58,142 nt of DNA, taken from IMG/VR virus record IMGVR_UViG_3300017917_003510, positions 1 to 58,142 of that record; one strand, given 5' to 3'. Below, piece after piece: positions 7,531-51,869 of this stretch. The notes beneath the pieces are model-generated. The model searched no databases and was not told the DNA's origin. It was given only the letters and a program-made list of their open reading frames with translations. The position numbers and the translations under genes are program-made. This stretch comes from a virus. How positions within the stretch are numbered: position 1 is the first letter of the stretch; the number at the start of each line of letters is the position of its first letter.

Positions 7531-8601
7531 ATGTTCCCTTTCTCTGATTTAAAATTGGTAGAAGTTGAAATAACTTCAAGATGTCAAGCCAGCTGTCCTA
7601 TGTGTGCCAGAAATATACATGGCGGCCCTGTTAATCCTAATTTAAAATTACAAGATTGGACCTTAACTGATTTTAAGAGAATATTTTCCGATGAATTATG
7701 TACGCAAATAACAACTGTAAGATTCTGTGGCAGCTTTGGAGATCCCGTAATTAATCAAGACCTTTTAGAAATGTGTCAGCATCTAAAAGATTTAAATCCA
7801 AAATTAGCAGTTAGATTACATACCAACGGTAGTGCTAGATCCATCGAGTGGTGGAAAGATTTGGCTATAGCATTACCAGAAGATCATTTGATTACTTTTG
7901 GCATAGATGGCCTAACTGATACACACAGCCTTCATAGGATCGGAACTGACTATAATAAAATTATCGAAAACGCCCAAGCATTCATACAAAACAATGGCAA
8001 AGCCGAATGGTGCTTTATTAAATTCAAACACAATGAGCATCAGATAACTCAAGCACAGTTGTTAGCGAAAGAATACGGATTTGTTTCCTTTGCTGTTAAG
8101 AATAGTATTAGATTTAACGGAGAACCGTATCCAGTCATTGATAAAGATAGTAATGTATTGTATAATATAAATCCTCCTTCAGACAACGTTGTTAAATTTG
8201 TAGATAAAGATCTGTTAAAAGGATTTGACAAATGGTTTGAGGAAGTTAAAGTTGATTGCCACGTTTTGAAAAATAAAGAAATTTATATAGATTCTCAGCA
8301 ACACATGTATCCTTGTTGTTGGATTGCATCGGCTCCGTATCTATATCATGATCCGGTTGATATTCTTTATTCATATAAACAGAGAGCCACTGAAGAATTC
8401 TACGATGTATTAGATAGTCTCGGCGGGTTTAAATCTATTGATCTTACAAACAAAACAGTAAAACAAGTATTCGAAATGCCAGAATGGCAGTCTGTTTGGC
8501 AAACTCATTGGAATGATAAAATCTTAGTTTGTGCTAAAAACTGCGGAAACAGTAAATTAACTAAGCCTAAAGATCAGGTAATATTGAAAGTAAATGTTTA
8601 A
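7531..8601 (+). CDS. radical SAM protein (copy A)
   Basis: A 356-residue radical SAM enzyme. C18-x3-C22-x2-C25 (CQASCPMC) binds the 4Fe-4S cluster, followed by RFCGSFGDP, LHTNGS and FGIDGL strands. A C-terminal SPASM-like region has DCHVLKNKEIYID, YPCCW and CAKNC cysteines for auxiliary clusters. SPASM enzymes usually modify peptides. The tandem neighbour at 8594 is a close paralogue and overlaps by 8 bases. No Shine-Dalgarno is visible; the start is supported by the match to the paralogue's N-terminus. Confidence 0.9.
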   Translation: MFPFSDLKLVEVEITSRCQASCPMCARNIHGGPVNPNLKLQDWTLTDFKRIFSDELCTQITTVRFCGSFGDPVINQDLLEMCQHLKDLNPKLAVRLHTNGSARSIEWWKDLAIALPEDHLITFGIDGLTDTHSLHRIGTDYNKIIENAQAFIQNNGKAEWCFIKFKHNEHQITQAQLLAKEYGFVSFAVKNSIRFNGEPYPVIDKDSNVLYNINPPSDNVVKFVDKDLLKGFDKWFEEVKVDCHVLKNKEIYIDSQQHMYPCCWIASAPYLYHDPVDILYSYKQRATEEFYDVLDSLGGFKSIDLTNKTVKQVFEMPEWQSVWQTHWNDKILVCAKNCGNSKLTKPKDQVILKVNV

Positions 8602-9676
8602 GTTCTCGGAATTAAAATCTATACACGTAGAATTAACTAATAACTGTCAAGCCAGTTGTCCTATGTGTGCAAGAAACGATCACGGAGGGTTACCAAATCC
8701 TAATATCGTAATCAATGAATTATCTCTTGATGATTTTAAACAAATATTTTCTACTGAAGTTTTGACACAAATAGATCATCTTTACTTCTGTGGTAACTAT
8801 GGAGATCCTATACTATCAAAAGATCTCTTACATATTTTAGAATATTGTACGACCACTAACTCTAATTTACAAATTGATATACACACAAACGGCAGTGCTA
8901 GAACATTAAAGTGGTGGCGGAGTCTGTTTCGTGTGTTACCTAAAAAACATTGTGTTCATTTTGCCTTAGATGGTTTATCAGATACCCATCATTTGTATAG
9001 AATAGGTACAGATTTTGATCGAATTATTGAAAATGCGAAAGAATTTATTACCTGTGGTGGAACAGCAGAATGGGTTTTTCTTTCTTTTAAGCACAATGAA
9101 CATCAGGTTCATGAGGCTAAAAAGTTAGCCACCGCTTTAGGATTTAATTCTTTCAGTCATAAGGCTACTGGACGCTTTTTAGAAAAACCTTGGTTCGATG
9201 TCTATGATAAAGATGGTAAAGTAACTTACAAGATAGAACCCCCCGAGGAACACAAAATAACATTTGTCAAAAAAGAAGTAATTGAAAACTACAGACAACA
9301 TGTAGCACAAGCAGAAATACATTGCGGAGTTCTGAAGACCAAGGAAATTTATATAGATGCACACGGTCATATATGGCCCTGTTGTTTTATAGGCGCTGTT
9401 CCTTACACCTATGCTGCATTATCGGAAATAACTCATACCTATCATAAAGAAACCAAACAAGAAGTTAAAGATCTCGTTTCTTATATAGGCAGTAATAATC
9501 TCAGAGATCGATCTATTAAAGAAGTAATCGATAGCACTCAGTGGCAGGAAGTCTGGAACAAATATTGGGCTGACAAAAAGTTAGCCACTTGTGCTAGAAC
9601 CTGTGGTAAGTTCCCAGAAAAGATAATCACCCAATACGGTGATCAATTTTTAAAAACCGAGGAATTCAGTGAATAA
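8594..9676 (+). CDS. radical SAM protein (copy B)
   Basis: A 360-residue paralogue of the preceding protein. C18, C22 and C25 form CQASCPMC, then YFCGNYGDP, IHTNGSAR and FALDGL, and a SPASM-like tail with CGVLKTKEIYID, WPCCF and CARTCG. The 8-base overlap with the gene before and after indicates coupled translation of a three-gene radical SAM run. Substrate unknown. Confidence 0.9.
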   Translation: MFKFSELKSIHVELTNNCQASCPMCARNDHGGLPNPNIVINELSLDDFKQIFSTEVLTQIDHLYFCGNYGDPILSKDLLHILEYCTTTNSNLQIDIHTNGSARTLKWWRSLFRVLPKKHCVHFALDGLSDTHHLYRIGTDFDRIIENAKEFITCGGTAEWVFLSFKHNEHQVHEAKKLATALGFNSFSHKATGRFLEKPWFDVYDKDGKVTYKIEPPEEHKITFVKKEVIENYRQHVAQAEIHCGVLKTKEIYIDAHGHIWPCCFIGAVPYTYAALSEITHTYHKETKQEVKDLVSYIGSNNLRDRSIKEVIDSTQWQEVWNKYWADKKLATCARTCGKFPEKIITQYGDQFLKTEEFSE

Positions 9677-11081
9677 CATTTATTGGTTACAACCAGAAGA
9701 TACTAAGCTAGGACATTGGCAGCGTAAAGTCAAAGACCTTAGCGGAAGCGATACCTATTGTGTGCTTCCATGGATCCACTTTGCCACTCGACCCAACGGA
9801 GACATGCGACTTTGTTGTAACTCAAACAGTAGCGGTGCAGGGTTTGATCACGAAATTGGACTAGTTAAAAATGAAACAGGTCGTCCTGCTAACTTTGGAA
9901 AAGAAACTCCAATGAGCGCATGGAACAATGAGTACATGAAGTCTGTGCGTACTACGATGCTAGAAGGGAATATTCCTAGTAGTTGTAAAAAATGTTTTGA
10001 TGAAGAAAGCAAAGGTGTCGTATCAAAACGTATGTGGGAAACTGGTACCTGGGTTGAAGAAGGTATAGACATTCCCGAGTTAATCAAACAAACTCAAGAA
10101 GACGGCACAGTTCCAGAACAGTTAGTCTATCTAGATCTAAGACTTGGACATACTTGCAATTTAAAATGTATTATGTGTAGTCCCCATGACAGCAGTCAGT
10201 GGGCAGCTGATCACAAAAAAGTATTTCCGTTATTTCAACATCCTGAATTAAAAAAACAGATGGCATGGGATAGAAAAGACTTTAACAATTTTTGGCATGA
10301 GAATCCAGACTTCTGGAAAGAAATGTATGCTCAAATTCCGAATCTAAAACAAGTTTATTTTGCCGGAGGCGAGCCTTTAATGATTAAAGAACACAAACTG
10401 TTCTTAGAAGAAATTATTAGACAAGGCTACGCTGACAAAATATTGGTGCGGTACAATACCAACGGTCTTCTTATAGACGATGAAATTATTAATCTATGGA
10501 CTCAATTTAAAAAAGTTAAAGTGGGGTTTAGTATTGATGCTGTAGGGGATCGAAACTATTATATTCGTTATCCCAGTGACTGGGATACCATTGTGCAAAA
10601 TTTGCACAAGCTAGACAATACTCCAAACAACATACAGGTCAGCATTGCTACCGCTATTCAAATTCTAAACATCAAACACTTGCCTGACTTTGCTCGCTGG
10701 AAGGTATCACAAAATTTCAAGAAAGTTAATTTTGAAAATGTCACAGGCGGAATCGAAGCAGGCGGCGGAATATTCAACATGCACCTGCTTTACATTCCTA
10801 CATTCTTAAGTATCAGATGCTTGCCTGCGGAAGATAAAGCAGAAGTTCGAGAAAGTTTTGCAAGGTTAGCTAATTGGTTACATGAAAACTATCGACAGAA
10901 TCAGGACTTTTGGAAAACTAATCCCTATGGTTGGCGTCGATGGAAGGCAGTATTAGATTTTATGGATGGTGAAGATCATACACATCTACTGCCCGCATTT
11001 AGAGAATATATTTCTACTATGGACGCAGAGAGAAGATTGAACTTCAAAGAAACGTTCCCGGAACTAAAACATTTATTATGA
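9669..11081 (+). CDS. twitch-domain radical SAM protein (copy C)
   Basis: A 470-residue protein of the twitch-domain-containing radical SAM type. An N-terminal auxiliary-cluster region carries C31, C49, C50, C106 and C109 (RLCCNSN, SCKKCFDEE). The radical SAM barrel follows, with C163, C167 and C170 (CNLKCIMC), FAGGEPL and YNTNG. It starts with GTG at 9669 behind a GAGGA. It is paired with gene D and mirrors the minus-strand pair at 12042-14238. Product unknown. Confidence 0.88.
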   Translation: MNNIYWLQPEDTKLGHWQRKVKDLSGSDTYCVLPWIHFATRPNGDMRLCCNSNSSGAGFDHEIGLVKNETGRPANFGKETPMSAWNNEYMKSVRTTMLEGNIPSSCKKCFDEESKGVVSKRMWETGTWVEEGIDIPELIKQTQEDGTVPEQLVYLDLRLGHTCNLKCIMCSPHDSSQWAADHKKVFPLFQHPELKKQMAWDRKDFNNFWHENPDFWKEMYAQIPNLKQVYFAGGEPLMIKEHKLFLEEIIRQGYADKILVRYNTNGLLIDDEIINLWTQFKKVKVGFSIDAVGDRNYYIRYPSDWDTIVQNLHKLDNTPNNIQVSIATAIQILNIKHLPDFARWKVSQNFKKVNFENVTGGIEAGGGIFNMHLLYIPTFLSIRCLPAEDKAEVRESFARLANWLHENYRQNQDFWKTNPYGWRRWKAVLDFMDGEDHTHLLPAFREYISTMDAERRLNFKETFPELKHLL

Positions 11082-12103
11082 GTATAATAGCAGTAGATCC
11101 CAATTCCGGAAAAGATACTCTTTACTTACAGTATCAATTTACAAATACCTGTAATTACAAATGCTGGTATTGTTGGCCAGAAAGTCATGCTGCCACTCAT
11201 CGTTGGCCTGATCTAGAATTAGTAAAAAAGAATCTCAGCCATTTGATCAATCATTATAAATCAAATGGAAAGAAAAAAATTGTTATTAATCTAACGGGTG
11301 GCGAACCCACCCTTTGGCCCGACTTAAACAAGTTTATAAAATATTTCTACGAAGAACATGATTGTAATTTTAGTTTAATTACTAACGGTTCGAGAACATT
11401 AAGCTGGTGGCAAACTTATGGAAAATACTTTGATAGGATCACTATAAGCGTTCATCATGAAAGCTGTGATACGGAACACATTAATCGAATCGCGGATTGT
11501 GTTTATAAACAAGGAGTAATAGTAGAAGCTCAGGTATTAATGGATCCATATCATTGGGATAAATGTAAAAATTTAATAACTGATCTTAAAAACAGCAAAT
11601 ACCGTTGGATGATTTCGGTCAAAGAGATATTAGTTGAAAATCAATTAATTTATAACAACGATCAGAAAAAGTTTTTAGAAAAGTCCGTAAAAAGAAAACC
11701 AAATTTCTTCTATCATTTTTTTAACAACAAATTAGACAATAAAAAATTTACAGTTACTCATGAAACAGGTTATACTGAAAAGATAGATTACAACACTATC
11801 ATCGTCAATGACTGGAATCATTTCAAAGAGTGGGAATGTAATCTAGGAGTTGATAGTATCTTTATAGACTTTGCAGGAAAAATATCCGGCACCTGCGGAG
11901 AATTTTTATACGGCGAACCCTCTTATCATAACTTACACGAATTGAATTTTATAGAGAAATTTAATCCTACAATAAAACCAGTGATTTGTACCAAAGAGGG
12001 ATGTTATTGTAGTCCAGAAGTAAATCTTAAGAAACGAAAAATTATACCGATTGTACCTGCTTTGTTATTGGAATATCCGCTGCACAGGTACAGTGGTCTC
12101 TAG
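11078..12103 (+). CDS. radical SAM protein (copy D)
   Basis: A 341-residue radical SAM protein. CNYKCWYC gives C25, C29 and C32, followed by NLTGGEPT, LITNGSR and ISVHHE. A C-terminal Cys set (WECNLGVDS, GTCGEF, ICTKEGCYC) suggests auxiliary clusters. It is ATGA-coupled to copy C. Its last 62 bases overlap the convergent copy E gene, so the final 20 or so residues after the CYC motif may be an accidental extension. It is a paralogue of copies E and H. Confidence 0.88.
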   Translation: MSIIAVDPNSGKDTLYLQYQFTNTCNYKCWYCWPESHAATHRWPDLELVKKNLSHLINHYKSNGKKKIVINLTGGEPTLWPDLNKFIKYFYEEHDCNFSLITNGSRTLSWWQTYGKYFDRITISVHHESCDTEHINRIADCVYKQGVIVEAQVLMDPYHWDKCKNLITDLKNSKYRWMISVKEILVENQLIYNNDQKKFLEKSVKRKPNFFYHFFNNKLDNKKFTVTHETGYTEKIDYNTIIVNDWNHFKEWECNLGVDSIFIDFAGKISGTCGEFLYGEPSYHNLHELNFIEKFNPTIKPVICTKEGCYCSPEVNLKKRKIIPIVPALLLEYPLHRYSGL

Positions 12104-12944
12104 TACAAATAATAGGGCCGGTCGGAACAATAAATGTTCCTTGATATATATTTCCTAAGCTACCTCCTACTCTACAGGTAGCACGATGGACATCTCCATC
12201 CCAGTTAATCATTAAACTTTCAATGCCTGCATTACAACTCCATCCTTTAAATTTGTTAAGATGAAGTTTGATGACATCGTTAGCGTGAATAATTTGTTCT
12301 CCAGAATCTATATTACAGTTAGGATCAGCTGTGGCATCTTGTTCTAAAAGCCATTCTAGATCATTGCCGTTGTATCTTAGATCATCGAACACATTATGAT
12401 CACCATCGGTCCAGCGTATTCTTCGAACAGCATACTTAATACCTAATTCTCGAAAAGCTTTAACGGTATCTCTTACCTGAGACATCTTGTCGTGGTGTGC
12501 CATTATATTGACAAAGAATTTTCTTTCAGTTGAACCATGATATTTAACGATAGTATCAAATACTCTGGTCCATTCAAACTCGAAATGCAGGCTAAAAACT
12601 AAATGATGCCAAAAAATCTCATTTTCTAAATACCACCGATAACCTCTAGTACCATTAGTTGTTACATTTACCCACGAAACATCTTTTCTTTTTAGATATT
12701 CTAGAAAGTCTTCTATGTCAGGATGCACACAAGGTTCTCCTCCTGTGAGACTGATACGCAGAGGTTTGCCTAATTTGCAGAGGTGATCAACAGCCTGTTC
12801 TAATACATTGATATCAGTATGAGGAGAGAAGTTATCGTGTATTGAACTAGGGCAATAACTACAGTCATAGTTACATCTTTTACCTAGATTCCATTCAACC
12901 TTTATAGAATCCTGATGAGGCCAAACACTGGTTATCTTATACAT
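12042..12944 (-). CDS. radical SAM protein (copy E)
   Basis: A 300-residue radical SAM protein. CNYDCSYC gives C24, C28 and C31, followed by SLTGGEPC, VTTNGTR and FSLHFE. A C-terminal WSCNAGIES, ATCRVGG and ICTRDHCTC set is shared with copy D. It overlaps copy F by 8 bases and converges on copy D with a 62-base overlap. Confidence 0.88.
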   Translation of the reverse strand: MYKITSVWPHQDSIKVEWNLGKRCNYDCSYCPSSIHDNFSPHTDINVLEQAVDHLCKLGKPLRISLTGGEPCVHPDIEDFLEYLKRKDVSWVNVTTNGTRGYRWYLENEIFWHHLVFSLHFEFEWTRVFDTIVKYHGSTERKFFVNIMAHHDKMSQVRDTVKAFRELGIKYAVRRIRWTDGDHNVFDDLRYNGNDLEWLLEQDATADPNCNIDSGEQIIHANDVIKLHLNKFKGWSCNAGIESLMINWDGDVHRATCRVGGSLGNIYQGTFIVPTGPIICTRDHCTCAADIPITKQVQSV

Positions 12945-14238
12945 ACGGTTTAAATTCCGGAACAGTATCTAATAAGTTTTGATTTCTTGTTGAATCTAGC
13001 TTACGATTGAATTCTAGAAAGTCGGACCATAAATGACTTTGATCTTTGGCACGTAGATAGTTAATATTATCTTTGATCTGTTGCTGTGTGATTTTTTCTA
13101 ATATAGGATTTTTTTGAACAGCATCGAAAGACCATACTGCTCTTCCAACAGTTTCTAATCTCTGTATAGCGAGTTCTTTAAGTTCTCGCGGTAATACCTG
13201 TGCTGAAAGGCAGTTAGGATAGCTGACTCTATGGCTATAGAAAACTATGTTCATCTCATTGATGAAATAATCAATGCACTCAGCTGCCTGTAAAATGTTA
13301 CCAGCCTGCGCGGTAAATGCTCCTACAACACGACTGACATTAGGGAACGAGCGAAATACCTTAACGTTTTCTTCTACGGTAGCAAATGAAGAATTAGAAC
13401 GAATATAGTCATAAACAGAATGAATACCGTCAATGCTAACATTAACCGCAACGCTTCGGAAATGTGGCCAATAATCGTGGATAGTCCGCGAGCCTTTAAT
13501 TCCAATTGTTGTGCCGTTAGTTGCGTATTTGAGTTCGATGTTTTTTCCATAGGGCTTTAGCATGTCTAATATTTTGTAGTGCTGTGGATCCATAAGTGGT
13601 TCTCCACCAGCGAATTCTACACGTCTAAAATGAGGTAATAGTCGTTCAAAACTAGCCCACCAGTTATCTGTGTCTTCGAAAGGACAGAGATATTTGCTGG
13701 TCTGTAATCCCAGTCTATTGATTACTGGAACAAGATAATTGTTTTCTTTCTTATAAAATTCTTCAACTTGATCCCAGTCATTCCATGACGTACTATCCAT
13801 AGGATGACACATACGGCATTTTAAGTTACAAAGATTATTCAGCTTGATTTCCATAGTAGGAAATTCAAAAGGCATTGTGTAATCTTCACGGAGTTGTTGC
13901 AGAGCATTAGGATAGAGATTAATACGTGCTTCTGGAATAACACCGTTAATGTGTCTTTGACGTAGGCTTTCTACTCCTTGATCCTCTAGATCAAAACAGG
14001 GCTTACATACTTCAGGACGTTCTCCGCAGAGCACTTGCCTGCGAACTTCTCGCATGGTGTCGTTGTTCCAAATTTCTTCCAGACTAGAGTCTTGTATAAA
14101 ACCGATAGGAGCCGAACGGCAACAGACTTTAACTGCTCCATCTTCTCTAGTAGCTAACCCTGTAAAAGGGTGCATACAAAATGTTTTACTTTGATTGTTC
14201 AATTGCCCAAGCTCTCTCTTTACACCAGAAACATTCAC
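12937..14238 (-). CDS. twitch-domain radical SAM protein (copy F)
   Basis: Counterpart of copy C. An N-terminal Cys region (TFCMHPF, KVCCRSA, EVCKPCFDLE) precedes a barrel with CNLKCRMC, FAGGEPLM and YATNGT. The start is uncertain. The frame is open to 14304 but would then overlap the upstream ATPase by 119 bases. A GTG at 14238 or a TTG at 14202 preceded by AGAGAG are more plausible; GTG is used here (433 residues). It is coupled to copy E, forming a pair that mirrors C-D. Confidence 0.85.
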   Translation of the reverse strand: MNVSGVKRELGQLNNQSKTFCMHPFTGLATREDGAVKVCCRSAPIGFIQDSSLEEIWNNDTMREVRRQVLCGERPEVCKPCFDLEDQGVESLRQRHINGVIPEARINLYPNALQQLREDYTMPFEFPTMEIKLNNLCNLKCRMCHPMDSTSWNDWDQVEEFYKKENNYLVPVINRLGLQTSKYLCPFEDTDNWWASFERLLPHFRRVEFAGGEPLMDPQHYKILDMLKPYGKNIELKYATNGTTIGIKGSRTIHDYWPHFRSVAVNVSIDGIHSVYDYIRSNSSFATVEENVKVFRSFPNVSRVVGAFTAQAGNILQAAECIDYFINEMNIVFYSHRVSYPNCLSAQVLPRELKELAIQRLETVGRAVWSFDAVQKNPILEKITQQQIKDNINYLRAKDQSHLWSDFLEFNRKLDSTRNQNLLDTVPEFKPYV

Positions 14239-14917
14239 CGCAAGTTGGGACATATTGTCTTGGCATATAATTTTTGTAACTAAATCCAGGTATTTCTCCT
14301 TCACAACTTCTTGTGATATCGAACAAATCTTCTAGACCTAATTTTATATACTGCGAAACAATCCAAGATTTATCAACAAATCTAAAAGGATGTATTGCCC
14401 AACGATCCATGTGTTTCATTTTTACTAAATGGCCGTTGTCATCCGAAGGATCTATATCTCTAGTAGGCATACCGCGAAAATCCACGTCTTTGGGATTTCT
14501 AGTTACCGCGTTATAGTAAGCATCAATATTATTTTTAAAGCAGACATATTCGGCAAACGCTCTAAGTTCAACGTTATCACCGCTGACTAATTTTCCATAT
14601 TCGTCAGTTATTGTGGGTCCTCGATCACCCCATTCTAATTCCGGGGGAATAAAATTTGTGTGACGCATGAAATTTATCTTTGGGAATTTGTATTGTAACC
14701 AATGATAGACTTTTAAACTATCCCATTCTTGCCAAGGCTTAGTTTTCCAGTTTCTTGTGTGGCTTATAATATGGATTTCAAACGGTTCTATTTCATTAGC
14801 TCTAATATTTTCGCAAAGAAGATATGCCAACAATGCACTATCAGCACCACCACTTAGACTTATAGCTATTTTTTTCCATTCGTTATCGAAAGGTATTTCT
14901 ACAGAATCGATAATCAT
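14186..14917 (-). CDS. QueC-like PP-loop ATPase
   Basis: A 243-residue PP-loop ATP pyrophosphatase. LSGGADSA (residues 21-28) is the nucleotide-binding loop. A C-terminal CEGE, then CGECFWCKER, is the zinc site typical of 7-cyano-7-deazaguanine synthase (QueC) and relatives. QueC turns a carboxylate into a nitrile through an amide; other members form amides. No QueD, QueE or DpdA-like gene is visible here, so deazaguanine DNA modification is not supported from the window. Amidation of the cluster's product is possible. Confidence 0.8.
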   Translation of the reverse strand: MIIDSVEIPFDNEWKKIAISLSGGADSALLAYLLCENIRANEIEPFEIHIISHTRNWKTKPWQEWDSLKVYHWLQYKFPKINFMRHTNFIPPELEWGDRGPTITDEYGKLVSGDNVELRAFAEYVCFKNNIDAYYNAVTRNPKDVDFRGMPTRDIDPSDDNGHLVKMKHMDRWAIHPFRFVDKSWIVSQYIKLGLEDLFDITRSCEGEIPGFSYKNYMPRQYVPTCGECFWCKERAWAIEQSK

Positions 14918-16461
14918 AGACCGAGTTTTTTCTCTATATATTCTGATTTAATCTGCTTCGCTCGAGCCATAAGAGGTGCTTGGTCTGGGCCACCTGATCT
15001 AGTAATCGTGCCACCGCCACCATGCGAAGCGGTATTCATATTGAAATGAGAATAATCTTTCTCTGCTTTTGCTTCTGAGATCGATAAAGCATGCTCGATG
15101 TTATCTGTTAGCGGTAAAAGAGCAAATAATTTCCAAGCATCTACATATCCGGGTTTAAAAGTTTTGATCTGATGATCTACGAGTTCGATAGCATCATACA
15201 TATTCATGTGATCATTTTCCCAAATAGTTAAATCATTTGAGAAAAAATTATGTCTATTGTAGAGCTCTCGTTTTTCCTGTCCCATCAAGGTATAACCATA
15301 TTTCTCATAATTTTCATCTATTTTAGATTTGTTTCCTGTTAAGCTTATATTCAACGGAAAAGATATGACATTTTGATCATTCCAATTATTGCATAACCAA
15401 TCGAGACCATTTAATATAGTTTCCGGAGTTTCTTTAGGTAATCCATATACTAGAGATACTGTTCCTCTATAAGGACCTAGATTTTTGTAGAAATATTCTT
15501 TGGTTCTCAGAAGACCCTCTTTGATTTTATCAGGGTGCATTCCCTTACCGATGATCTTTCCAGTCTCATGATTGAACGTTTCTATGCCGTAATAGTGACT
15601 CCACACCCTAGCTCTTGCTAATAATTCTAACTGTTCGGGTTTGCTGAATAATATATCACCGCGAATAAATGCGTTGAAGTTTAAATCAAATGGCATTTCC
15701 TGTACTATGTCACCGATCTTTTCTAATTTTTCATTTCGATCATTTAGCGTTTCGTCTGCAACCTGATAGTTAGTGACGCCATAAAGAACATAGTTTCTTC
15801 TTAGTTCTTCTCGAAGACTATTGATATCCCGAGTAGTATCCTCTTTCACTCCGAGTACTGGAAAATTACAAAAAGCACAGGAAAATTTACAGCCTCTAGA
15901 AAACTCTAACGCTAGTGTTTCATTGGGGTAGATAAAATCTCGATCTTCATACTCTACACTCAGATCGCTAATCGGCCAGGCTTGATAAAAAGCATTGGCA
16001 TCGACATACCACCCGTTTTTTCTAGGAATACCTTTGATAGGGGGGCCATTGCTGAAAATATATTTCAGTACGGCAAGAGTAGCTATTTCCCCGAATCCGG
16101 CTATGATCCAATCGATATTATCGTAAATATCAAAATGTATGCTAGGATTTTGTCCGCCAGCGATAGTAACTGTTTTAGGATAACTTTTTTTGACAAATCT
16201 TAAAAGATCCCGCATGTTTCGTTGGACAGTATCGGTTGAATAATTGATCCATGTAGTGCTGAATCCAATCCAATCGATATGATATTTTTTACCTCTATCT
16301 TTGATTAAATCTTTTAATTGATCGATATTCCAATGATAGAAAAAATCAATAACTTCAACGTCCCAGCCTTCGCGTCTTAGAACAGTGGCCATCCGATATG
16401 CACCGCTGACTCGTTCTAAACCTCCGGATCTTTCATATCCAGTAAAAATAATTGCATGCAT
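14914..16461 (-). CDS. B12-binding-type radical SAM protein (copy G)
   Basis: A 515-residue protein with an N-terminal Rossmann-like half (VEVIDFF, WIGFSTTW, VTIAGGQNPS, GFGE) resembling cobalamin-binding domains, then a radical SAM barrel with C191, C195 and C198 (CKFSCAFC). Class B radical SAM enzymes of this layout methylate unactivated carbons or rearrange substrates. The DxHxxG cobalamin motif is not obvious, so bound B12 is uncertain. It is ATGA-coupled to the PP-loop gene. Confidence 0.85.
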   Translation of the reverse strand: MHAIIFTGYERSGGLERVSGAYRMATVLRREGWDVEVIDFFYHWNIDQLKDLIKDRGKKYHIDWIGFSTTWINYSTDTVQRNMRDLLRFVKKSYPKTVTIAGGQNPSIHFDIYDNIDWIIAGFGEIATLAVLKYIFSNGPPIKGIPRKNGWYVDANAFYQAWPISDLSVEYEDRDFIYPNETLALEFSRGCKFSCAFCNFPVLGVKEDTTRDINSLREELRRNYVLYGVTNYQVADETLNDRNEKLEKIGDIVQEMPFDLNFNAFIRGDILFSKPEQLELLARARVWSHYYGIETFNHETGKIIGKGMHPDKIKEGLLRTKEYFYKNLGPYRGTVSLVYGLPKETPETILNGLDWLCNNWNDQNVISFPLNISLTGNKSKIDENYEKYGYTLMGQEKRELYNRHNFFSNDLTIWENDHMNMYDAIELVDHQIKTFKPGYVDAWKLFALLPLTDNIEHALSISEAKAEKDYSHFNMNTASHGGGGTITRSGGPDQAPLMARAKQIKSEYIEKKLGL

Positions 16462-16499
16462 GATGATATTTAATTAAATAGACAACGCAGGTAAAATAA

Positions 16500-17192
16500 A
16501 TGAAATATAGCTACTATTATAACATCATTCCAGAAGCAGGTAAAGTCCGAAACAATTTGATATACACCAGTCTGATCAGCGAGGATCAAAAGACTTTTGT
16601 AAAATGGTTTCACAATGACAGCGAATATCATATGGGTATGAACGAAGTTGTAGATCCAAACCTAATGGAATCAAAATGGGAACGCGAACTCAAATATATC
16701 ACCCTGATGAATGATTTTTATCCTGAACATATTCCAGTTTTATTAGATGTAAATCATACGGAAAAAAAATTATATTTTCAAATCGAAGGAGTTGATTTTT
16801 GGCAACGGCACTATGATCAAAATTGTTCTTATGAGGGCGTTCTTCCTGATTGGCAACAGCAGATGCTAGAAATAATTCAAGCACATTATGACCTCGGATT
16901 GTACAAATACAGTATGCATCCTAGCAGTTATTTCATTGTAGATGGAAAACTAAAAAGTATTAATTATTTTTTTGCTTATCACAAAAATGAGCCTCAGGTT
17001 ACCTTAGGCGAGCATCGAACACACATCAGCAAAGAACGTAGAGAAAAACTAGAAAAAATCATGGAAAGTAAATCAATGACTTGGGATTCGATCGTATCTT
17101 TTTATGATATGCAGATGTTGTGTTTTGAAAGTTTTAGAAGTAATTATTCCGACGATTTTATCAACAAGGCTAAAAACATATATGCTGATTGA
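16500..17192 (+). CDS. protein-kinase-like fold protein
   Basis: A 230-residue protein. WERELKYITLMND followed by HIPVLLDV and LYFQIEG resembles the N-lobe and hinge of kinase-like folds. AHYDLGLYKYSMHPSSYFIVDGKLKSINYFF resembles a catalytic loop and DFG region, but with HPSSYF and NYF instead of HxDxxxxN and DFG, so it is degenerate. It could be a pseudokinase or an atypical phosphotransferase. A CAGGT lies before the ATG. It begins the rightward run that continues with two oxygenases. Confidence 0.6.
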   Translation: MKYSYYYNIIPEAGKVRNNLIYTSLISEDQKTFVKWFHNDSEYHMGMNEVVDPNLMESKWERELKYITLMNDFYPEHIPVLLDVNHTEKKLYFQIEGVDFWQRHYDQNCSYEGVLPDWQQQMLEIIQAHYDLGLYKYSMHPSSYFIVDGKLKSINYFFAYHKNEPQVTLGEHRTHISKERREKLEKIMESKSMTWDSIVSFYDMQMLCFESFRSNYSDDFINKAKNIYAD

Positions 17193-17877
17193 TCTGAATA
17201 TAACCGTAGATATAGAATCATTAGTAAAAGAACTAGACAAAGCTGTTTGGGATTCTAAAAATAGATGTAATCTAAATAAGCCAACCGGAAACTGGTTATT
17301 TGACAGTTATGAAATTTTACCAGAATGGAAGGGATCGGCTTTTGATACTTTATTATCGGGATTACCGTTTAGAATAGGTGAAGCTCGACTAATGAAATTA
17401 ACTCCAGGCACTTGTTATCCTTGTCATTCGGATTTGGATGATCGATATCATATAAATCTAACTTCGAATCAACAATCGTATCTTATTGATTTAAAAAATC
17501 ATGTGATGCATCCTGTAGAAACTGATGGCAAGATATATTTAATGAATGCTAATCTGTTACATACTGCGGTAAATTTTGGAGATACTGATAGAATACAGTT
17601 GGTAATTAGAAAACCGTTTGATAGAATATCCGATGAGGATATGATAGAAATGACTGTTAAATTCATAAATCCTAAATTTAATTTTAGATACGAATTTGAT
17701 CAACGAGTTTCGCCAGTCATAGGTAAGTTGGCAAAAGAAAAAGAATTAAGTTGGTTCGAACCTACGTCTGAAACTAACATGATAGTTAAAACTACACAAG
17801 ACGGAATAAATGAATTGTTAGAAACTTTTAATGAATGTGGTTTCAAATATCTCACATCTATATCGGATAAAAAATGA
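17182..17877 (+). CDS. aspartyl beta-hydroxylase-like 2OG oxygenase
   Basis: A 231-residue protein with CHSDLDD (H82, D84), YHINL, SYLIDL, LLHTAVN (H127) and DRIQLVI (R137): the aspartyl/asparaginyl beta-hydroxylase pattern with all iron and 2OG ligands in place. The ATG at 17182 overlaps the previous stop by 11 bases; the frame is open further upstream but that would cut deep into the kinase-like gene. ATGA overlap with the next gene. Confidence 0.82.
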   Translation: MLIDLNITVDIESLVKELDKAVWDSKNRCNLNKPTGNWLFDSYEILPEWKGSAFDTLLSGLPFRIGEARLMKLTPGTCYPCHSDLDDRYHINLTSNQQSYLIDLKNHVMHPVETDGKIYLMNANLLHTAVNFGDTDRIQLVIRKPFDRISDEDMIEMTVKFINPKFNFRYEFDQRVSPVIGKLAKEKELSWFEPTSETNMIVKTTQDGINELLETFNECGFKYLTSISDKK

Positions 17878-18650
17878 TTCGAGGAATAGCAGGCCAACCT
17901 TATATTGATTTAGATCCCTATCTCGATATCGAAACGATTAAATCTTTGCATTATAAAATCTGTAAAGGTATAGTTCAAAGTAGATATAAAAAAGAAGGTA
18001 ATGTGGTAAGACCTGGAGGTTTTAACGATGCTTATGAATTAACGTTTAAACCTACATTCCAAGCATTAGAAGAATATCAGGCACTGCCCGACGACCACGA
18101 AATCAAAGTTCTAGGAAGAGAACTAGGTGAGTTAAACAATAGAGATCAATTTGTATTATTTCTTAAATTAGCCCTGGGTGCTTATGACCCTTATCAGTTT
18201 ATCTTTTTAAAAACTGAGGCCGGCGGATGGGAATCTAGATTCGAAGAAAAACCATGGACACCAGATGCTGAGTATTTTCCAGAGTTAAAACAATGGATTG
18301 AAAAATTACAAGGAACTGTTTTTAAACATCTTGGAAGGATCATTATTTTTAAAGCCGAGCATGACGGAAAGACTGCTATGCATCGAGATTTAATATATCC
18401 TAAAGAAACAGATTACAGCAATCATCGACACGAATTCATACATGTCCGCACTAGACTAGATAGACCCTTTTATATCTGGGATGCTGAAATAGATAAGAAA
18501 GTTGAAGCCAAATCACACGCAATATTTTTTAATGATCAAGATTGGCATAATGGTGGGATCGCTAATGTGCAGACTTTCAGCATACGGATTGACGGAGAAT
18601 TCACAGAAGAATTTAGACAGCGAGCCGGATTCGCTGTTGAATTTTATTAA
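17874..18650 (+). CDS. 2OG/Fe(II) oxygenase-like protein
   Basis: A 258-residue protein with HRD (an HxD motif), FIHVRTRLDRPFYIWD, FFNDQDWHNGG (distal His) and FSIRIDG. It is a paralogue of the 285-residue protein at 20240: the N-termini share P-(Y/F)-I-(D/N)-LDP-(Y/F)-L and both have a D-(W/F)-x-x-R-P-F-Y strand. It converges on the minus-strand gene at 18647 with a four-base stop overlap. Confidence 0.75.
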   Translation: MIRGIAGQPYIDLDPYLDIETIKSLHYKICKGIVQSRYKKEGNVVRPGGFNDAYELTFKPTFQALEEYQALPDDHEIKVLGRELGELNNRDQFVLFLKLALGAYDPYQFIFLKTEAGGWESRFEEKPWTPDAEYFPELKQWIEKLQGTVFKHLGRIIIFKAEHDGKTAMHRDLIYPKETDYSNHRHEFIHVRTRLDRPFYIWDAEIDKKVEAKSHAIFFNDQDWHNGGIANVQTFSIRIDGEFTEEFRQRAGFAVEFY

Positions 18651-19216
18651 CGCTCTCTACCAATAAAATGAAACATGTGTTTGGTTTCAAATCCGGCATT
18701 CATACCTAGATGCCACTCGTCCCATTTAATCCATTTATAAACTGCGCCCTGTTCTATAAAATGAAATGCTTGATCACCTAGAACAAAAATATGACCTATT
18801 TGAGGTTCGTCTAAGAACAAAGAATATCGAACCATTTTAGAATCATTTTTATACTGTTTATAGTTAGCGATGATGTCCCAATGCCAAGGAACGCATTTAC
18901 CAACAGGTATAGTACTAACCCAGGTGTTAATAGGATCGGCATTTACAAGATTAGCGAACTTATCTACATATGAATGATCATAATGCTGACCGGCATAAAA
19001 GTTAATCCATTGTACAGCACCATTAGAGAGATAACCAGCTTTCTCCCAATTCTCTTTCATTTGTTGTTTAGCCAGTTTTAGTTCTTCATCGAGTTCTGCA
19101 TTTTCGCCATAGGGATTTTCTGGTGATCTCAAATCTCCTCGATAGTGAGAAATTTCTTTTAAGAATTGTATGCAATCGAATTTCTCTTTAAAGTTATCTA
19201 TGTATATTGCTTGCAT
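18647..19216 (-). CDS. 2OG/Fe(II) oxygenase-like protein
   Basis: A 189-residue protein with WHWD (HxD), YSLFLDEP, GHIFVLGDQAFHF, EWHLGMN (distal His) and a HMFHFIG strand. The usual 2OG-binding Arg appears replaced by Lys. The ATG at 19216 follows the upstream radical SAM stop by one base; the longer open frame into that gene was rejected. It is paired with copy H. Confidence 0.72.
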   Translation of the reverse strand: MQAIYIDNFKEKFDCIQFLKEISHYRGDLRSPENPYGENAELDEELKLAKQQMKENWEKAGYLSNGAVQWINFYAGQHYDHSYVDKFANLVNADPINTWVSTIPVGKCVPWHWDIIANYKQYKNDSKMVRYSLFLDEPQIGHIFVLGDQAFHFIEQGAVYKWIKWDEWHLGMNAGFETKHMFHFIGRER

Positions 19217-19217
19217 T

Positions 19218-20195
19218 TTATTTTCTTTTAGGTATTTTACTATCAGCCGAACTGACACAGGTTTCTGTAACACATACCCTAGGATTACGAAATATTTCAA
19301 ATCCTTCGGTAATAGTTCCCAACGACGATTCCTTACAGCTATAGGCTCGTCGAACTTCATTTTCTCTAATAACTATACTCTGATATCCGGCATTGCAGGT
19401 CCAGCCTTGAAACCGATTAAATCCGAAGGCATTAAATCTTTCTGCTTGATCCAAGTAATAATCTTTAATTTCGTCATTTAATTTTATTTGATAAAGATCT
19501 TCATCAGACACTCTTTGTGGAAACCCGGTACGCATCAGTGTAATCATATCTTCAGTATAACCATCTACTATGAAACTAGCAGTTGGGTCACTTTGGGGTT
19601 TAAGAGTTACATTGATTCCACGCTGATGTAATCGATCCATTCGTTCGTACAACTCGTAGAACTTGTCAGGAACCATCACTTGATTAACTGTGACGAAAAC
19701 GCTGTCGTAGATTAATTGCAAACACTTGTCGCCAAATTCTTGTTCCTTGGCGAATTCATCATGAAAGCTAGCCGTGATACTTCGACGTTGCAACATTGCG
19801 GTATGTTCTGACCATGCCTTCCACCACTTGCTTCCTGGGCTTAGATTAGTGGTCATGTGTATGCTTTGATAAGGAGTCTGAACACCGTCGTCTAAATGTT
19901 TTACCAAATCTAACAACTGCTTATAAGCAGTAGGCTCTCCTCCTGAAAAACTCCAGTGGAAATCAGTAAATCCATTTTGTCTTGCTTGTTGCTTGATCTC
20001 ATCGATTGTTTGTTTATAAACTTCTAAAGAAAAATGATCTGGTTTATCCGATCTAGCATATGGCCAACAGTAACTACAATTATAATTGCAGAAACGTCCG
20101 AGTATCCAACTAACATTGAATAACGGACGATCAAGCATTGTTCGCTGACCAAAGTTTGTGATTTCTTTAAAAGGTATTGCTGTAAATTCGTTCAT
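19218..20195 (-). CDS. radical SAM protein (copy H)
   Basis: A 325-residue radical SAM protein. CNYNCSYC gives C36, C40 and C43, followed by FSGGEPTA, HMTTNLS and ITASFHDE. A C-terminal WTCNAGYQS, YSCKES and VCVTETC set matches copies D and E. The ATG at 20195 was chosen; an upstream GTG at 20201 is possible. No clear Shine-Dalgarno is seen. It diverges from the oxygenase at 20240 across a 44-base gap. Confidence 0.88.
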   Translation of the reverse strand: MNEFTAIPFKEITNFGQRTMLDRPLFNVSWILGRFCNYNCSYCWPYARSDKPDHFSLEVYKQTIDEIKQQARQNGFTDFHWSFSGGEPTAYKQLLDLVKHLDDGVQTPYQSIHMTTNLSPGSKWWKAWSEHTAMLQRRSITASFHDEFAKEQEFGDKCLQLIYDSVFVTVNQVMVPDKFYELYERMDRLHQRGINVTLKPQSDPTASFIVDGYTEDMITLMRTGFPQRVSDEDLYQIKLNDEIKDYYLDQAERFNAFGFNRFQGWTCNAGYQSIVIRENEVRRAYSCKESSLGTITEGFEIFRNPRVCVTETCVSSADSKIPKRK

Positions 20196-20227
20196 GCTCA
20201 CAAGTATATATCGACAATCGTCTATAC

Positions 20228-25510: not shown

Positions 25511-25529
25511 TTTGATATCTCCTTAAGAT

Positions 25530-25552
25530 TAAAGTGGGGACTCTCACCCCAC
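25530..25552 (-). terminator. weak terminator-like hairpin
   Basis: GTGGGG and CCCCAC form a 6-bp stem just downstream of the zinc-ribbon gene at 25569. Only a short T-rich tract follows, so termination would be partial. Confidence 0.45.
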
Positions 25553-25568
25553 ATGTATTATAAATTAC

Positions 25569-47789: not shown

Positions 47790-47797
47790 TATTTATC
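47790..47797 (-). promoter_or_regulatory. late-promoter-like box GATAAATA
   Basis: NATAAATA-type box on the minus strand, 7 nt before the ATG at 47782, inside the end of the bilin reductase gene. Confidence 0.5.
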
Positions 47798-48473
47798 GTA
47801 TTTCGGGAAACAGGCAATCCTGTATAAACACCCTAACATCTTCTTCGTTGAGCCCTAAACTAGTCATTACTTTAGGAGTATGTGGGTTTTGCTTTTGATT
47901 TTGAGCATAAAAGTTCTGTTCGAACGTGCTGTCTGCTATAGAATGATTAGTTTCACCCACGGTTTCTATGTAATGATTAACCATTATATGTGCTAAAGAC
48001 TCTATTTGACTTAATTCCGTTTCGTCCTGTACATTACCAGCAGCTACCATATTAGAACTAAAAATACGCTGTGCCCAGTCTGGTAACTCACGTTTTTTAA
48101 TCCAGTCATATCTGCTGACTTCTTCAGCAAAGTATTCTAGCATCGGATGATTTTTATCAGTGGTAGGGCTATAATCTAAAAAGCAGCCAGTGATTTTGTT
48201 TTTACCGGCTATAACATCAAAGCCGAAAATAGGAGCAGAATTATGAATATGCGGAAAAATACAACAGTGCATCATCCAAAGTCCTTTAGATGATCTAGCA
48301 TCTACTACATCGACGTGTGCTCGACGATACCGATCACTAGTCCATACACGATTAACCCAACCAGGTTGATTAAAACGAGCCATTTCAGGCTCGAACGTCT
48401 CAACTCCGGTTTCATTAAACTTCTGTTCGAAGTAGTGCTGAATCTGAATCAACGTATTCCAAACTTGACTCAT
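47793..48473 (-). CDS. ferredoxin-dependent bilin reductase
   Basis: A 226-residue protein of the ferredoxin-dependent bilin reductase family (PcyA, PebS, PcyX). RVWTSDRYRRAHVDVVDAR, LWMMHCCIFPH, PIFGFDVIAG and GCFLDYSP are the core of these enzymes. They reduce biliverdin with ferredoxin electrons to phycobilins. A PebS- or PcyX-type phage enzyme is likely, but the subtype needs a tree. It overlaps heme oxygenase by 59 bases, so substrate supply and reduction are coupled. Confidence 0.88.
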   Translation of the reverse strand: MSQVWNTLIQIQHYFEQKFNETGVETFEPEMARFNQPGWVNRVWTSDRYRRAHVDVVDARSSKGLWMMHCCIFPHIHNSAPIFGFDVIAGKNKITGCFLDYSPTTDKNHPMLEYFAEEVSRYDWIKKRELPDWAQRIFSSNMVAAGNVQDETELSQIESLAHIMVNHYIETVGETNHSIADSTFEQNFYAQNQKQNPHTPKVMTSLGLNEEDVRVFIQDCLFPEIR

Positions 48474-48987
48474 TTAGTTCCTTCATAATAGCGATAGCAT
48501 GATCAAAAGCTACATTAGCTTCATCACCCATAGAATCATTGATCTTTTGTCTAATTGCTGTTTTCAAATCGTCAGCATTTTTAAATTGATAAAATCTTCC
48601 TTCTCCGGGAACACGACTAGCAATCATCTGTCCTCCGAAAAGATCTCCCATGTGTCTTACATACATATGAGCCATGATTTTATCTTTATCTTCTAAGTTA
48701 GAAAGATACTCTGCATATGTTCTAGTCGATGGAAGGATAGCATAATTGGCACCGCCGGTTAGTTCGCATAGATCATCATAGATAGCTCTGCATCTGGCTA
48801 AACCGTCCAATCCTTCGAATAATCCGTGAGCAGCAGCCTGATGTTCTAGAATAGAATATACTGCCATCATTTGTGTGAGATAACAAGCATATTGTTCTTT
48901 GGTGATTTTCCCGCTGAGTAGAAGTTTAGCAAATTCAGTTCTTTCAGCGTCGTGATGTTTTTCTTTGGTTAGGTCTTTTAAACTCAT
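48415..48987 (-). CDS. heme oxygenase
   Basis: A 190-residue heme oxygenase. An N-terminal H (KHHDAERTEF) is the heme ligand, and YVRHMGDLFGGQMIASRV is the distal helix signature. It opens heme to biliverdin, iron and CO, using ferredoxin electrons. Cyanophage ho1 genes are usually paired with pebS or pcyA, as here with the gene at 47793. A GAGGAG lies before the ATG at 48987. Its job may be bilin supply or iron release. Confidence 0.92.
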   Translation of the reverse strand: MSLKDLTKEKHHDAERTEFAKLLLSGKITKEQYACYLTQMMAVYSILEHQAAAHGLFEGLDGLARCRAIYDDLCELTGGANYAILPSTRTYAEYLSNLEDKDKIMAHMYVRHMGDLFGGQMIASRVPGEGRFYQFKNADDLKTAIRQKINDSMGDEANVAFDHAIAIMKELNESSLEYVDSDSALLRTEV

Positions 48988-49390: not shown

Positions 49391-49828
49391 TTACTTAACC
49401 TCTACGACTTCGATCACTCGAGGTTTGAGTTCCTCAGGAACGATGCGCTCTAACATCACTGTTAGAATACCGTTCTCAATTTGGGCACCCTTTACTTCGA
49501 TATGTTCAGCTAACGGAAATACTTTAGTAAAGTCTCTGCTGGCTAATCCTCGATGTAGATATTGCTCTGGATGATATTCTGTAGTTTGGCTTTCACCTTT
49601 GATAGTAAGATGATTATCTTCTAGTTCTACAGTAATCTCAGTCTTAGAAAAACCAGCCACAGCGACCTGTATGAGATAGTCGTTATCACCGGTTTTAATA
49701 ATATTATGTGGAGGATAGTTGTTGTTGATTTGATTAGCAAATCGACGCTCCATGTCGTCGAACATGCGATCAAAACCTACAAGTGCTCTAGCAAGAGCGT
49801 TAGTGTCAAAACGTTGTAATTGTGTCAT
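49391..49828 (-). CDS. small heat shock protein (Hsp20/IbpA type)
   Basis: A 145-residue alpha-crystallin-domain chaperone. YLIQVAVAGFSKTEITVELEDN, HLTIKGE, RGLASRDFTKVFPL and IENGILTVMLERI are the Hsp20 core, with a C-terminal ELKPRVIEV motif for oligomer contacts. It holds unfolding proteins for DnaK. Its leader holds a ROSE-like hairpin that covers the AAGGAG, and a consensus-type promoter lies upstream. Confidence 0.95.
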   Translation of the reverse strand: MTQLQRFDTNALARALVGFDRMFDDMERRFANQINNNYPPHNIIKTGDNDYLIQVAVAGFSKTEITVELEDNHLTIKGESQTTEYHPEQYLHRGLASRDFTKVFPLAEHIEVKGAQIENGILTVMLERIVPEELKPRVIEVVEVK

Positions 49829-49883
49829 TTTATTTTCTCCTTAATTAAGCAAGAATTTATGAGGCCTCACCCGAGCACCTCAT
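49829..49883 (-). promoter_or_regulatory. ROSE-like RNA thermometer in the hsp20 leader
   Basis: The AAGGAG (49837-49842) can pair with TTCTT-G-CTT upstream (49835-49855), leaving one bulged G. The strand holds UUGCU (49848-49852), the UYGCU motif that marks ROSE thermometers opposite the Shine-Dalgarno. An ATGAGG/CCTCAT hairpin (49859-49883) precedes it, as in multi-stem ROSE leaders. Known ROSE elements control bacterial hsp20 genes. Confidence 0.75.
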
Positions 49884-49888
49884 AAGTT

Positions 49889-49917
49889 AGTTTAACATTT
49901 CTCTGTCTGTGTGTCAA
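49889..49917 (-). promoter_or_regulatory. sigma-70 promoter for hsp20
   Basis: TTGACA, 17 bp, TAAACT on the minus strand, about 60 nt before the hsp20 ATG. It overlaps the end of dnaK. Confidence 0.7.
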
Positions 49918-51788
49918 TCCTTCTTTTCGCTAAACTCAGCATCTACAATTTCTGGTTCTGCTGATGCCTGTTCTTTTTTAGTTTTAGCCTGTGCAATTGG
50001 TACGATAGCAGTGTATAATTCTCCAGCTTTGGTAGTTATATTATCTTTATCGTCACCACGTGCTGCTTCCTCTAATGCTGTGATTGCTTCGTTGATTTTT
50101 GTTTTTTCATCGTCAGTGAGTTCAGATTCTACTTCTTTCATATCTGTTCGAGCAGCGTGTATCTGTGCTTCTGCACTATTGCGGGCTTCAACTAATTCTC
50201 TCTGCTTCTTATCTGCTTCTGCGTTGGCTTCGGCATCACGGATCATCTGATCAATCTGATCTTTACTTAGTCCCGAATCTGATTTGATAGTGATCTTATT
50301 TTCTTTGCCTGTGCCTTTGTCTTTGGCTGAGATATTCATGATACCGTTAGCATCAATATCAAAGGTAACTTCGATCTGTGGCATACCACGACGTGCCGGC
50401 GCGATACCTTCTAGATTAAATTCTCCAAGCAGTTTGTTATGCTGACAGAATTCTCTTTCGCCTTGAAAAACTTTGATAGTAACTGCTGGCTGATTATCTT
50501 CTGCTGTTGAGAAAGTTTGACTAGCTTTGGTAGGAATAGTAGTATTCTTCTGGATGATCTTGGCCATCACACCGCCGAGTGTTTCGATACCAAGACTCAA
50601 AGGTGTAACGTCTAACAGTAGAACGTCTTTACGATCGCCACCTAACACAGCACCTTGGATAGCGGCTCCGACTGCCACTGCCTCATCTGGATTCACATCC
50701 TTACGAGGTGATTTGCCAAAAAGTTTCTCCACTGCTTCCTGAACCTTAGGCATGCGAGTCTGACCACCTACAAGAATAACTTCGTCGATATCTGCGGCAG
50801 TAACTCCTGCGTCTTTCATCGCGATGCGGCAAGGTTCTAAACTGCGTTGAATAAGATCTTCAACTAGACTTTCTAATTTTGCTCGAGTTATTTTTACTAC
50901 TAGATGTTTTGGTCCGGAAGCATCAGCAGTAATGTAGGGAAGATTAACTTCAGTTTGGTTGCTGTTAGATAATTCAATCTTGGCTTTTTCTGCAGAATCT
51001 TTTAATCTCTGTAGAGCCAACGTATCATTTTTAAGATCTACACCTTGTTCTTTTTTGAACTCATCGACTAAGTAGTCCATGATGCGTTGGTCAAAGTCTT
51101 CACCGCCTAAGAATGTGTCACCGTTGGTGCTAAGAACTTCGATCTGTTTGTCACCATCGATGTTGGCGATTTCAATAATGCTAACATCAAATGTTCCGCC
51201 ACCTAGATCATAGACAGCAACTTTACGATCCTTACCGTCTTTCTTATCCACACCGTAGGCCAATGCTGCGGCAGTCGGCTCATTGATGATACGCAGAACT
51301 TCTAGACCTGCGATCTGTCCTGCGTCTTTGGTTGCTTGACGTTGTTGGTCGTTGAAATAAGCAGGAACAGTGATAACTGCTTTGGTAACTGTTTCACCTA
51401 GATAGTCTTCGGCAGTCTTTTTCATCTTGCGAAGAACTTCAGCAGAGATCTGTGGAGGGGCTAGTTCTTTGCCCTGAGCACGAACCCACGCATCACCGTT
51501 CTTTGATTCCATGATCTCGTAAGGCATTAGACCGATGTCTTTTTGTACTGCATCTTCTTTGAACTTACGTCCAATTAAACGCTTGGCAGCATAGATTGTA
51601 TTTTTGGGATTAGTTACTGATTGACGTTTAGCTGTAGCACCAACTAGAATTTCTTCTGCGGTGTATGCTACGATACTAGGCGTAGTTCTAGCACCTTCGC
51701 TATTTTCAATTACTTTGGAATTTCCGTTTTCGATAACGGCTACGCATGAATTTGTTGTACCTAAATCGATACCAATAATTTTACTCAT
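49914..51788 (-). CDS. dnaK: chaperone DnaK (Hsp70)
   Basis: A 624-residue Hsp70. [15 protein letters not shown] begins the ATPase domain, [15 protein letters not shown] is phosphate loop 2, and [18 protein letters not shown] marks the linker. The substrate-binding beta-sandwich and the helical lid follow, ending [14 protein letters not shown]. It has full length and all nucleotide-binding motifs, so it is probably active. Phage Hsp70 is rare and would need DnaJ and GrpE from the host. Its leader carries a ROSE-like hairpin. Confidence 0.97.
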
Positions 51789-51861
51789 TTTTTCCTCCTT
51801 AAATTAAGCGAGTAAGTTTTGGGCAACTGCCCTATGTAGAACCCGAAGCGTTCTACAAAAA
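51789..51861 (-). promoter_or_regulatory. ROSE-like RNA thermometer in the dnaK leader
   Basis: The AAGGAG (51795-51800) can pair with CTC-G-CTT (51806-51812) around AATTT, again with one bulged G. The strand holds UCGCU (51807-51811), which fits UYGCU. Two more hairpins lie upstream: GTAGAAC/GTTCTAC and GGGC/GCCC. The core is the same design as in the hsp20 leader. Confidence 0.7.
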
Positions 51862-51869
51862 TATTTATC
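51862..51869 (-). promoter_or_regulatory. late-promoter-like box GATAAATA upstream of dnaK
   Basis: NATAAATA-type box on the minus strand, overlapping the guaC stop, 73 nt before the dnaK ATG. It fits a transcript whose leader begins just before the dnaK thermometer. Confidence 0.5.

Follow-up and report, generated by a model that had tools for sequence, protein, structure and literature searches.

The window analysed here, IMG/VR record IMGVR_UViG_3300017917_003510, is a virus fragment of 58,142 bases that carries phage genes for a head-maturation protease, an exonuclease and an endolysin as well as 14 tRNAs, the only families recovered when the window was searched against Rfam at gathering cut-offs. 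Thirteen of the tRNA genes are packed tightly on the minus strand at 96-2226 and the 14th lies at 26652, while several radical-SAM-like proteins with CxxxCxxC-type motifs are grouped at 7531-20201 with oxygenase-like proteins in between. The minus strand carries dnaK, hsp20 and clpS, and a heme oxygenase and a ferredoxin-dependent bilin reductase-like gene adjoin this group (47793-48987). The dnaK (Hsp70) gene (49914-51788, minus strand) encodes 624 amino acids and matches Pfam HSP70 (PF00012) with 864.7 bits. The hsp20 gene (49391-49828, minus strand) encodes a protein of 145 amino acids (Pfam HSP20, 63.4 bits; PHROG 432), which belongs to the IbpA class by its equivalent of R93 and its aromatic residue at position 34. 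In the alignment to E. coli IbpA, Arg98 (codon 49535-49537, minus strand) corresponds to R93 and Ala58 (codon 49655-49657, minus strand) to residue 54. An AlphaFold model of this Hsp20 (mean pLDDT 74) places both residues in predicted loops beside strands, in the numbering of the window protein after strand 50-56 for residue 54 and before strand 100-105 for R93.

The dnaK leader covers positions 51861-51789 of the minus strand (UUUUUGUAGAACGCUUCGGGUUCUACAUAGGGCAGUUGCCCAAAACUUACUCGCUUAAUUUAAGGAGGAAAAA) and is followed by the AUG at 51788. Its order from 5' to 3' is a GATAAATA box, a first hairpin (HP1), a spacer hairpin, the Shine-Dalgarno (SD) hairpin ending in AAGGAGG, and the AUG. The box, which by its sequence resembles a T4 late promoter, lies just 5' of HP1 (51862-51869, minus strand) and overlaps the end of the upstream IMPDH/GMP-reductase-like gene. 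HP1 (UGUAGAAC(G)CUUCGGGUUCUACA; 51835-51857, minus strand) has a bulged G at 51849 and is backed by folding and by covariation over 93 leaders; the spacer hairpin (GGGCAGUUGCCC; 51821-51832, minus strand), seen in sequence and fold, is found in many relatives but not in all. Sequence and fold also define the SD hairpin (CUC(G)CUU-AAUUU-AAGGAG; 51795-51812, minus strand), in which UCGCU pairs opposite AAGGAG (SD, 51795-51800), leaving one G bulged (51809) and closing an A/U-rich loop. The initial annotation had described this pairing as the same design as in hsp20, and it holds both in the sequence and in the RNAfold minimum free energy structure, which is this very stem. A stronger and more informative feature had been passed over, namely the upstream HP1 with its identical bulged-G module in both leaders (51835-51857 for dnaK, 49857-49885 for hsp20).

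In the hsp20 leader, likewise defined by sequence and fold, HP1 (UUAUGAGGU(G)CUCGGGUGAGGCCUCAUAA; 49857-49885, minus strand) has its bulged G at 49876, and the SD hairpin (UUCUU(G)CUU-AAUU-AAGGAGAA; 49835-49855, minus strand) has a bulged G at 49850 and the SD at 49837-49842. Between 25 C and 42 C the predicted opening of the SD rises from 10% to 22% for hsp20 and from 1% to 4.5% for dnaK; nearest-neighbour energies model the bulge poorly, the predicted openings are small and the in silico trend is weak. The fold z-score of the dnaK leader is -1.8 for the 29-nt SD hairpin alone and -2.9 for the whole leader. Taken from the single window, the evidence for the dnaK leader is modest.

ROSE-like elements are defined by a U(U/C)GCU motif imperfectly paired with the SD and containing one bulged G, by two to four stem-loops with the SD in the last and a free AUG, by opening and translation that depend on temperature, and by a position before a small heat-shock gene. 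The motif is UCGCU in dnaK and UUGCU in hsp20, and the leaders have three and two hairpins, respectively. The position agrees for hsp20, while dnaK departs from it; ROSE-like elements have also been published upstream of ABC-transporter genes (PMC11342760). By this literature definition the window leaders qualify, as far as sequence features can tell, as ROSE-like. They stay below the Rfam cut-offs for RF01832 (ROSE_2) and RF02523 (ROSE_3), with 20.9 bits for dnaK on ROSE_3 (cut-off 43, E 0.33) and 18.4 bits for hsp20 on ROSE_2 (cut-off 65), and are therefore not filed as members of these families. The E. coli ibpA ROSE, used as a yardstick, scores 100 bits on ROSE_2 and 20.8 on ROSE_3, so that about 20 bits is the score of one ROSE family on another. 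The R2 covariance model recovers both leaders, dnaK with 26.4 bits (E 2.6e-7, 51794-51857) and hsp20 with 60.1 bits (E 5.1e-20, 49836-49884); its match at 25518-25553 of the window (16.1 bits) was taken as chance. Rfam RF02980 (freshwater-2) was rejected for the hsp20 leader, on which it scores 22.8 bits against a cut-off of 49.9 and displays a consensus without the UYGCU strand.

Two IMG/VR scans yielded about 80 loci each for dnaK and hsp20, and the core is kept in all of them with a complete leader. Relatives that retain the genes but lack the upstream strand, which would have spoken against the element, were thus not encountered among these loci. Specificity was counted over every distinct gene with an ARGGAG SD in the scanned loci and the window: the core is present in 157 of 158 chaperone genes (dnaK, hsp20 or groES) versus 0 of 52 other genes. 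The 53 genes without it comprise one hsp20, with a single C-to-U change, and otherwise clpS, groEL and unrelated genes. Fisher's test gives a p of about 7e-49, which ignores relatedness; since the leaders were fetched via these same genes and are related, it overstates independence, while the contrast itself does not. The earlier argument that a core shared by two chaperone genes makes chance less likely is borne out by this count, and it is supported that the dnaK and hsp20 leaders of this phage are ROSE-type, far beyond chance.

Cultured phages have the same arrangement, since the hsp20 leaders of the pelagiphages Mosig, HTVC008M, HTVC115P and HTVC103P, of the Methylophilales phage Melnitz-3, Agrobacterium phage Atu_ph07 and phage C48C1, and of the cyanophages metaG-MbCM1, Syn33, Syn1 and P-RSM4 all consist of a bulged-G upstream hairpin and the core. 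Phage groES leaders (L004, L005, L009, L029) carry the element too, and groEL, the second gene behind groES, is without it. The dnaK leaders of six huge phages of distant relationship (LR756501, LR756502, LR756504, LR756508, Lak-A1, Lak-B4) have no core, and these six phages are absent among the IbpA-type hsp20 matches listed, with 448 hsp20 records not itemised singly. The element is thus widespread in environmental phages and covers dnaK and groES besides hsp20.

The SD stem is nearly invariant across the leaders, and covariation is therefore uninformative for this helix; its support is the conservation of the anti-SD strand, which itself neither codes for protein nor serves as an SD. The initial annotation had pointed to paired strands kept with compensatory changes, and the strands are indeed kept, but compensatory changes were looked for in the SD stem and none occur there; covariation lies in HP1. 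With a covariance model that started from ten leaders and was enlarged to 93, 98.7% of the HP1 cells are paired over the 93 leaders, and eight of the nine pairs show changes on both sides. Double-changed cells in both helices number 203 versus 51.6 in shuffles, with every slid control far lower, and the covariation score is 0.385 versus 0.139. Fitting the alignment to the structure inflates the covariation counts, yet several pair types occur at most HP1 pairs.

HP1 repeats the ROSE module of a wobble pair, a bulged purine and a C-G pair; the crystal structure of a ROSE-like stem likewise has the bulged G between U.G and C-G (PMC11342760). Of 61 leaders, 45 have U.G and 15 have C-G as the pair next to the HP1 bulge, and U.G occurs at none of the other outer HP1 pairs counted. 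In its strict form, with a Y.G pair, the bulge, a C-G pair and at least five outer pairs, the module is present in 142 of 165 chaperone leaders versus 138 of 3300 shuffles (4%) and 3 of 52 other genes; all 142 have a purine as the bulged base.

The bulged base is G in most phages and A in one group, here called A-type. The UYGCU motif of the initial annotation consequently holds for the G-type phages, but the A-type relatives have UYACU with a bulged A and do not strictly conform to the ROSE-like motif. The bulge of HP1 equals that of the SD hairpin in every leader, no true exception being left after inspection: discordant bulges in L022, L029, L035, L040, L051, L052, L054, L066, L081, L093 and L195, and six more in the later Hsp20 set, proved by eye to be parser or regex errors or mismatched hairpins. 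The dnaK, hsp20 and groES leaders of one contig also agree in bulge type (60 of 60, L051 corrected). SD pairing alone does not demand equal bulged bases across leaders.

According to Cheng, Miwa and Taguchi (2023), IbpA binds its own 5'UTR and represses its own translation, for which R93 is essential and Y34 must be aromatic (PMC10474464). R93 is kept in 132 of 133 viral Hsp20 proteins, an aromatic residue (Y/F) at position 34 in all 133. Residue 54 (IbpA numbering) follows the bulge, with Thr in 42 of 42 A-bulge phages and Ala (90) or Ser (1) in the 91 G-bulge phages; no other alignment column splits cleanly by leader type, the next best overlapping by 18%. Two apparent cases of Ala54 with an A bulge turned out to be internal start codons. 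A further 94 proteins, fetched afterwards and all with R93, fit with one exception: Thr accompanies A in 33 and Ala accompanies G in 60, while a single Ser occurs together with A. On the best trees the A-type is found at two to four positions, and AU tests did not reject a single A-type origin (p 0.64 for DnaK, 0.29 for Hsp20, 0.53 combined), so that between one and four switches may underlie the link to residue 54; in view of these tests we gave up the claim that G had changed to A three or more times independently. The link cannot reach significance by independent pairs. As a putative code, residue 54 therefore shows an association that is perfect but phylogenetically thin, and the equality of the bulge across four or more RNA sites is the stronger half of the evidence. 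The apparent co-evolution of the phage Hsp20 with the bulged base suggests that the protein may read the switch directly.

Most of the bacterial ibpA and ibpB leaders compared (L225-L250, L293-L382) carry the same module upstream, for example AAGCAC(G)CCGACAGGGUGCUU in Siccibacter ibpA. In a set of 133 ibpA-/ibpB-like leaders of proteobacteria with a parsed core, the bulge of the SD hairpin is G in nearly all and residue 54 is always Ala or Ser, with no Thr54 among them. The strict HP1 form is present in 97 of 131 bacterial leaders versus 13.5% of shuffles, and its bulge is G in 95 of the 97. Leaders of bacterial IbpB, which has Q93, carry the module as well; this counts against a reading by Hsp20, although these leaders could be targets of IbpA. 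A genome scan of bacteria for the Thr fragment confirmed nothing, and a second scan returned only enterobacteria with Ala54. For E. coli, the Rfam ROSE_2 model begins downstream of a 5' bulged-G hairpin.

ROSE control of dnaK had been considered unusual even in bacteria. In our comparison most bacterial dnaK leaders are without the core (0 of 30 have it at a threshold reached by 139 of 166 viral chaperone leaders), and 30 bacterial groES leaders were also without it at the same threshold. However, a few bacterial dnaK leaders have an HP1-like hairpin and sometimes a core, so that the arrangement is not obviously phage-only. An HP1-like bulged-G hairpin was seen in L398, L399, L400, L402, L405, L409, L410, L444, L446 and L448 (GGGAAU(G)CCUUCUCGGGGUUC in L402); in L398, L402, L405 and L409 a core-like strand also lies opposite the SD. 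ROSE-like control of dnaK may thus exist in bacteria too and need not have arisen in phages.

The dnaK/hsp20 leader is almost certainly a genuine ROSE-type cis-regulatory element. Translation is likely to respond to temperature, judging from a core identical to that of proven ROSE elements, and the analogy to IbpA together with the co-variation makes it fairly probable that the phage Hsp20 reads the leader. We propose a ROSE-type translational switch on the phage chaperone regulon, hsp20, dnaK and, where present, groES, which on balance is probably read by the phage Hsp20 as well. Each leader mRNA would offer two copies of the module (Y.G, in most cases U.G, then the bulged purine and C-G), one in the stable upstream HP1 and one in the weak hairpin that hides the SD. 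In the unstressed cell the SD hairpin would be closed, and free IbpA-class Hsp20 with its RNA-binding arginine would read the bulged purines and keep it so. Upon heat or in the presence of unfolded protein the SD hairpin would open and Hsp20 would be drawn off, so that Hsp20, DnaK and GroES could be made together. This order of events is inferred.

The alternative to be taken most seriously, although we regard it as unlikely, is a plain ROSE-type thermometer without a protein partner, in which HP1 would protect the 5' end or aid folding, the bulges would derive from hairpin duplication and the link to residue 54 would reflect the ancestry of one clade. The function of the 5' hairpins of ROSE leaders is not fully understood, and in Pseudomonas hairpin II alone is temperature-responsive while HP1 does not melt (PMC3669281); that the core of G-type phages matches published ROSE exactly and that the A-type may have one origin also suits a plain thermometer. 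A protective hairpin, however, has no need of the destabilising U.G pair and the bulge that HP1 keeps, and a plain thermometer would leave unexplained why G turned into A in concert in both hairpins of two or three mRNAs. The retention of R93 and of the aromatic residue at position 34, and the position of residue 54 as the sole disjoint column, likewise argue against it. Since pure temperature sensing accounts neither for the equal bulge in both hairpins nor for its tracking of an Hsp20 residue, a reader acting in trans is the better fit. That this reader is another one, be it an RNase or an RNA-binding protein of host or phage, with Hsp20 residue 54 only correlated, seems improbable: equal bulged bases across leaders demand a common reader and name none, but phages whose hosts are unrelated (cyanobacteria, SAR11, Methylophilales, Agrobacterium) share the module wherever an IbpA-class hsp20 is present, and the six huge-phage dnaK leaders without the module come from phages absent among the IbpA-type hsp20 matches listed. 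A leader without any regulation, A/T-rich and with strong SD pairing to an upstream U-rich stretch by accident, would agree with the unremarkable single-sequence fold scores, but chance pairing is ruled out, as far as sequences can show, by the lack of the core in the 52 other SD genes of the same phages and by the strict HP1 counts, and conservation and covariation leave this explanation a negligible probability.

Extending the Hsp20-read switch, ROSE leaders in general might be protein-read operators as well as thermometers, a view for and against which we see about equal weight. Hsp20 would recognise a flipped bulged purine, residue 54 would set the base (Ala for G, Thr for A), dnaK, hsp20 and groES would stand under one sensor of aggregation and heat, and the two-site code would apply to bacterial ibpA leaders as well. 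If true, this code would account for the puzzling 5' hairpin of ROSE elements, and the pairs Ala/G and Thr/A would be a natural specificity pair for IbpA-RNA recognition, in which just one essential arginine is known to date. For the phage it would mean that its chaperone genes form a regulon which heat or protein aggregation switches during infection. The chaperone mRNAs of a freshwater virus of bacteria appear in any case to begin with a bacterial-type thermometer RNA that contains the bulged-base motif twice.

With the ROSE families (RF00435, RF01832, RF02523; Bradyrhizobium hspA, E. coli ibpA, Pseudomonas ibpA), our named comparison set, the phage leaders share the U(U/C)GCU-SD pairing, the bulged G, the A/U-rich loop, at least two stem-loops, the free start codon and a heat-shock gene downstream. 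They differ by their location on a phage, by standing also before dnaK and groES, by UYACU with a bulged A in one group and by scores under all Rfam cut-offs; the repetition of the bulged-purine module in HP1 is a further difference from ROSE as described. The likeness to IbpA self-repression lies in an IbpA-class Hsp20 with R93 and an aromatic residue 34 whose own leader is ROSE-type, whereas the proposed phage targets include dnaK and groES and the binding is a candidate only; for IbpA, the parts of that study consulted mention no purine specificity linked to residue 54 (PMC10474464). Like the Salmonella groESL thermometer (PMC4166951), the phage element precedes groES, the first gene, and groEL is without it, but what may set the phage groES leader apart is its ROSE bulged-purine core together with HP1. 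The ROSE-like/ROSE-G elements of ABC-transporter genes (PMC11342760, PMC12857270) share the SD-hairpin module with the U.G, bulged G and C-G of the crystal structure, but belong to other genes with no chaperone link; the terms phage and dnaK are absent from both texts, and chaperone from that of PMC11342760. The lambda cIII and SPbeta blyA thermometers (PMC4166951, PMC10586365) are likewise RNA thermometers in phage mRNAs, but have other structures (alternative folds and fourU) and unrelated genes. A search of the open-access literature, with subscription journals outside its range, returned no report of a phage ROSE element.

Upstream of HP1, TATAAATA with at most one mismatch occurs within 30 nt in 92 of 162 leaders versus 25 expected, and the commonest gap from such a late box to HP1 is 3 to 5 nt. 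The TATAAATA-like box is a putative T4-type late promoter, and transcription probably starts at the foot of HP1. Strong matches of R2 over 27 whole phage records were confined to chaperone leaders and one leader before a small helical ORF. The latter is a ROSE-type leader (39.3 bits with R2; L281:2484, minus strand) on the L015 contig of a large phage (IMGVR_UViG_3300032322_002561, 205990-206045), and the gene behind it, coding for a helical protein of 88 amino acids with no confident Pfam match, is a possible further member of the regulon.
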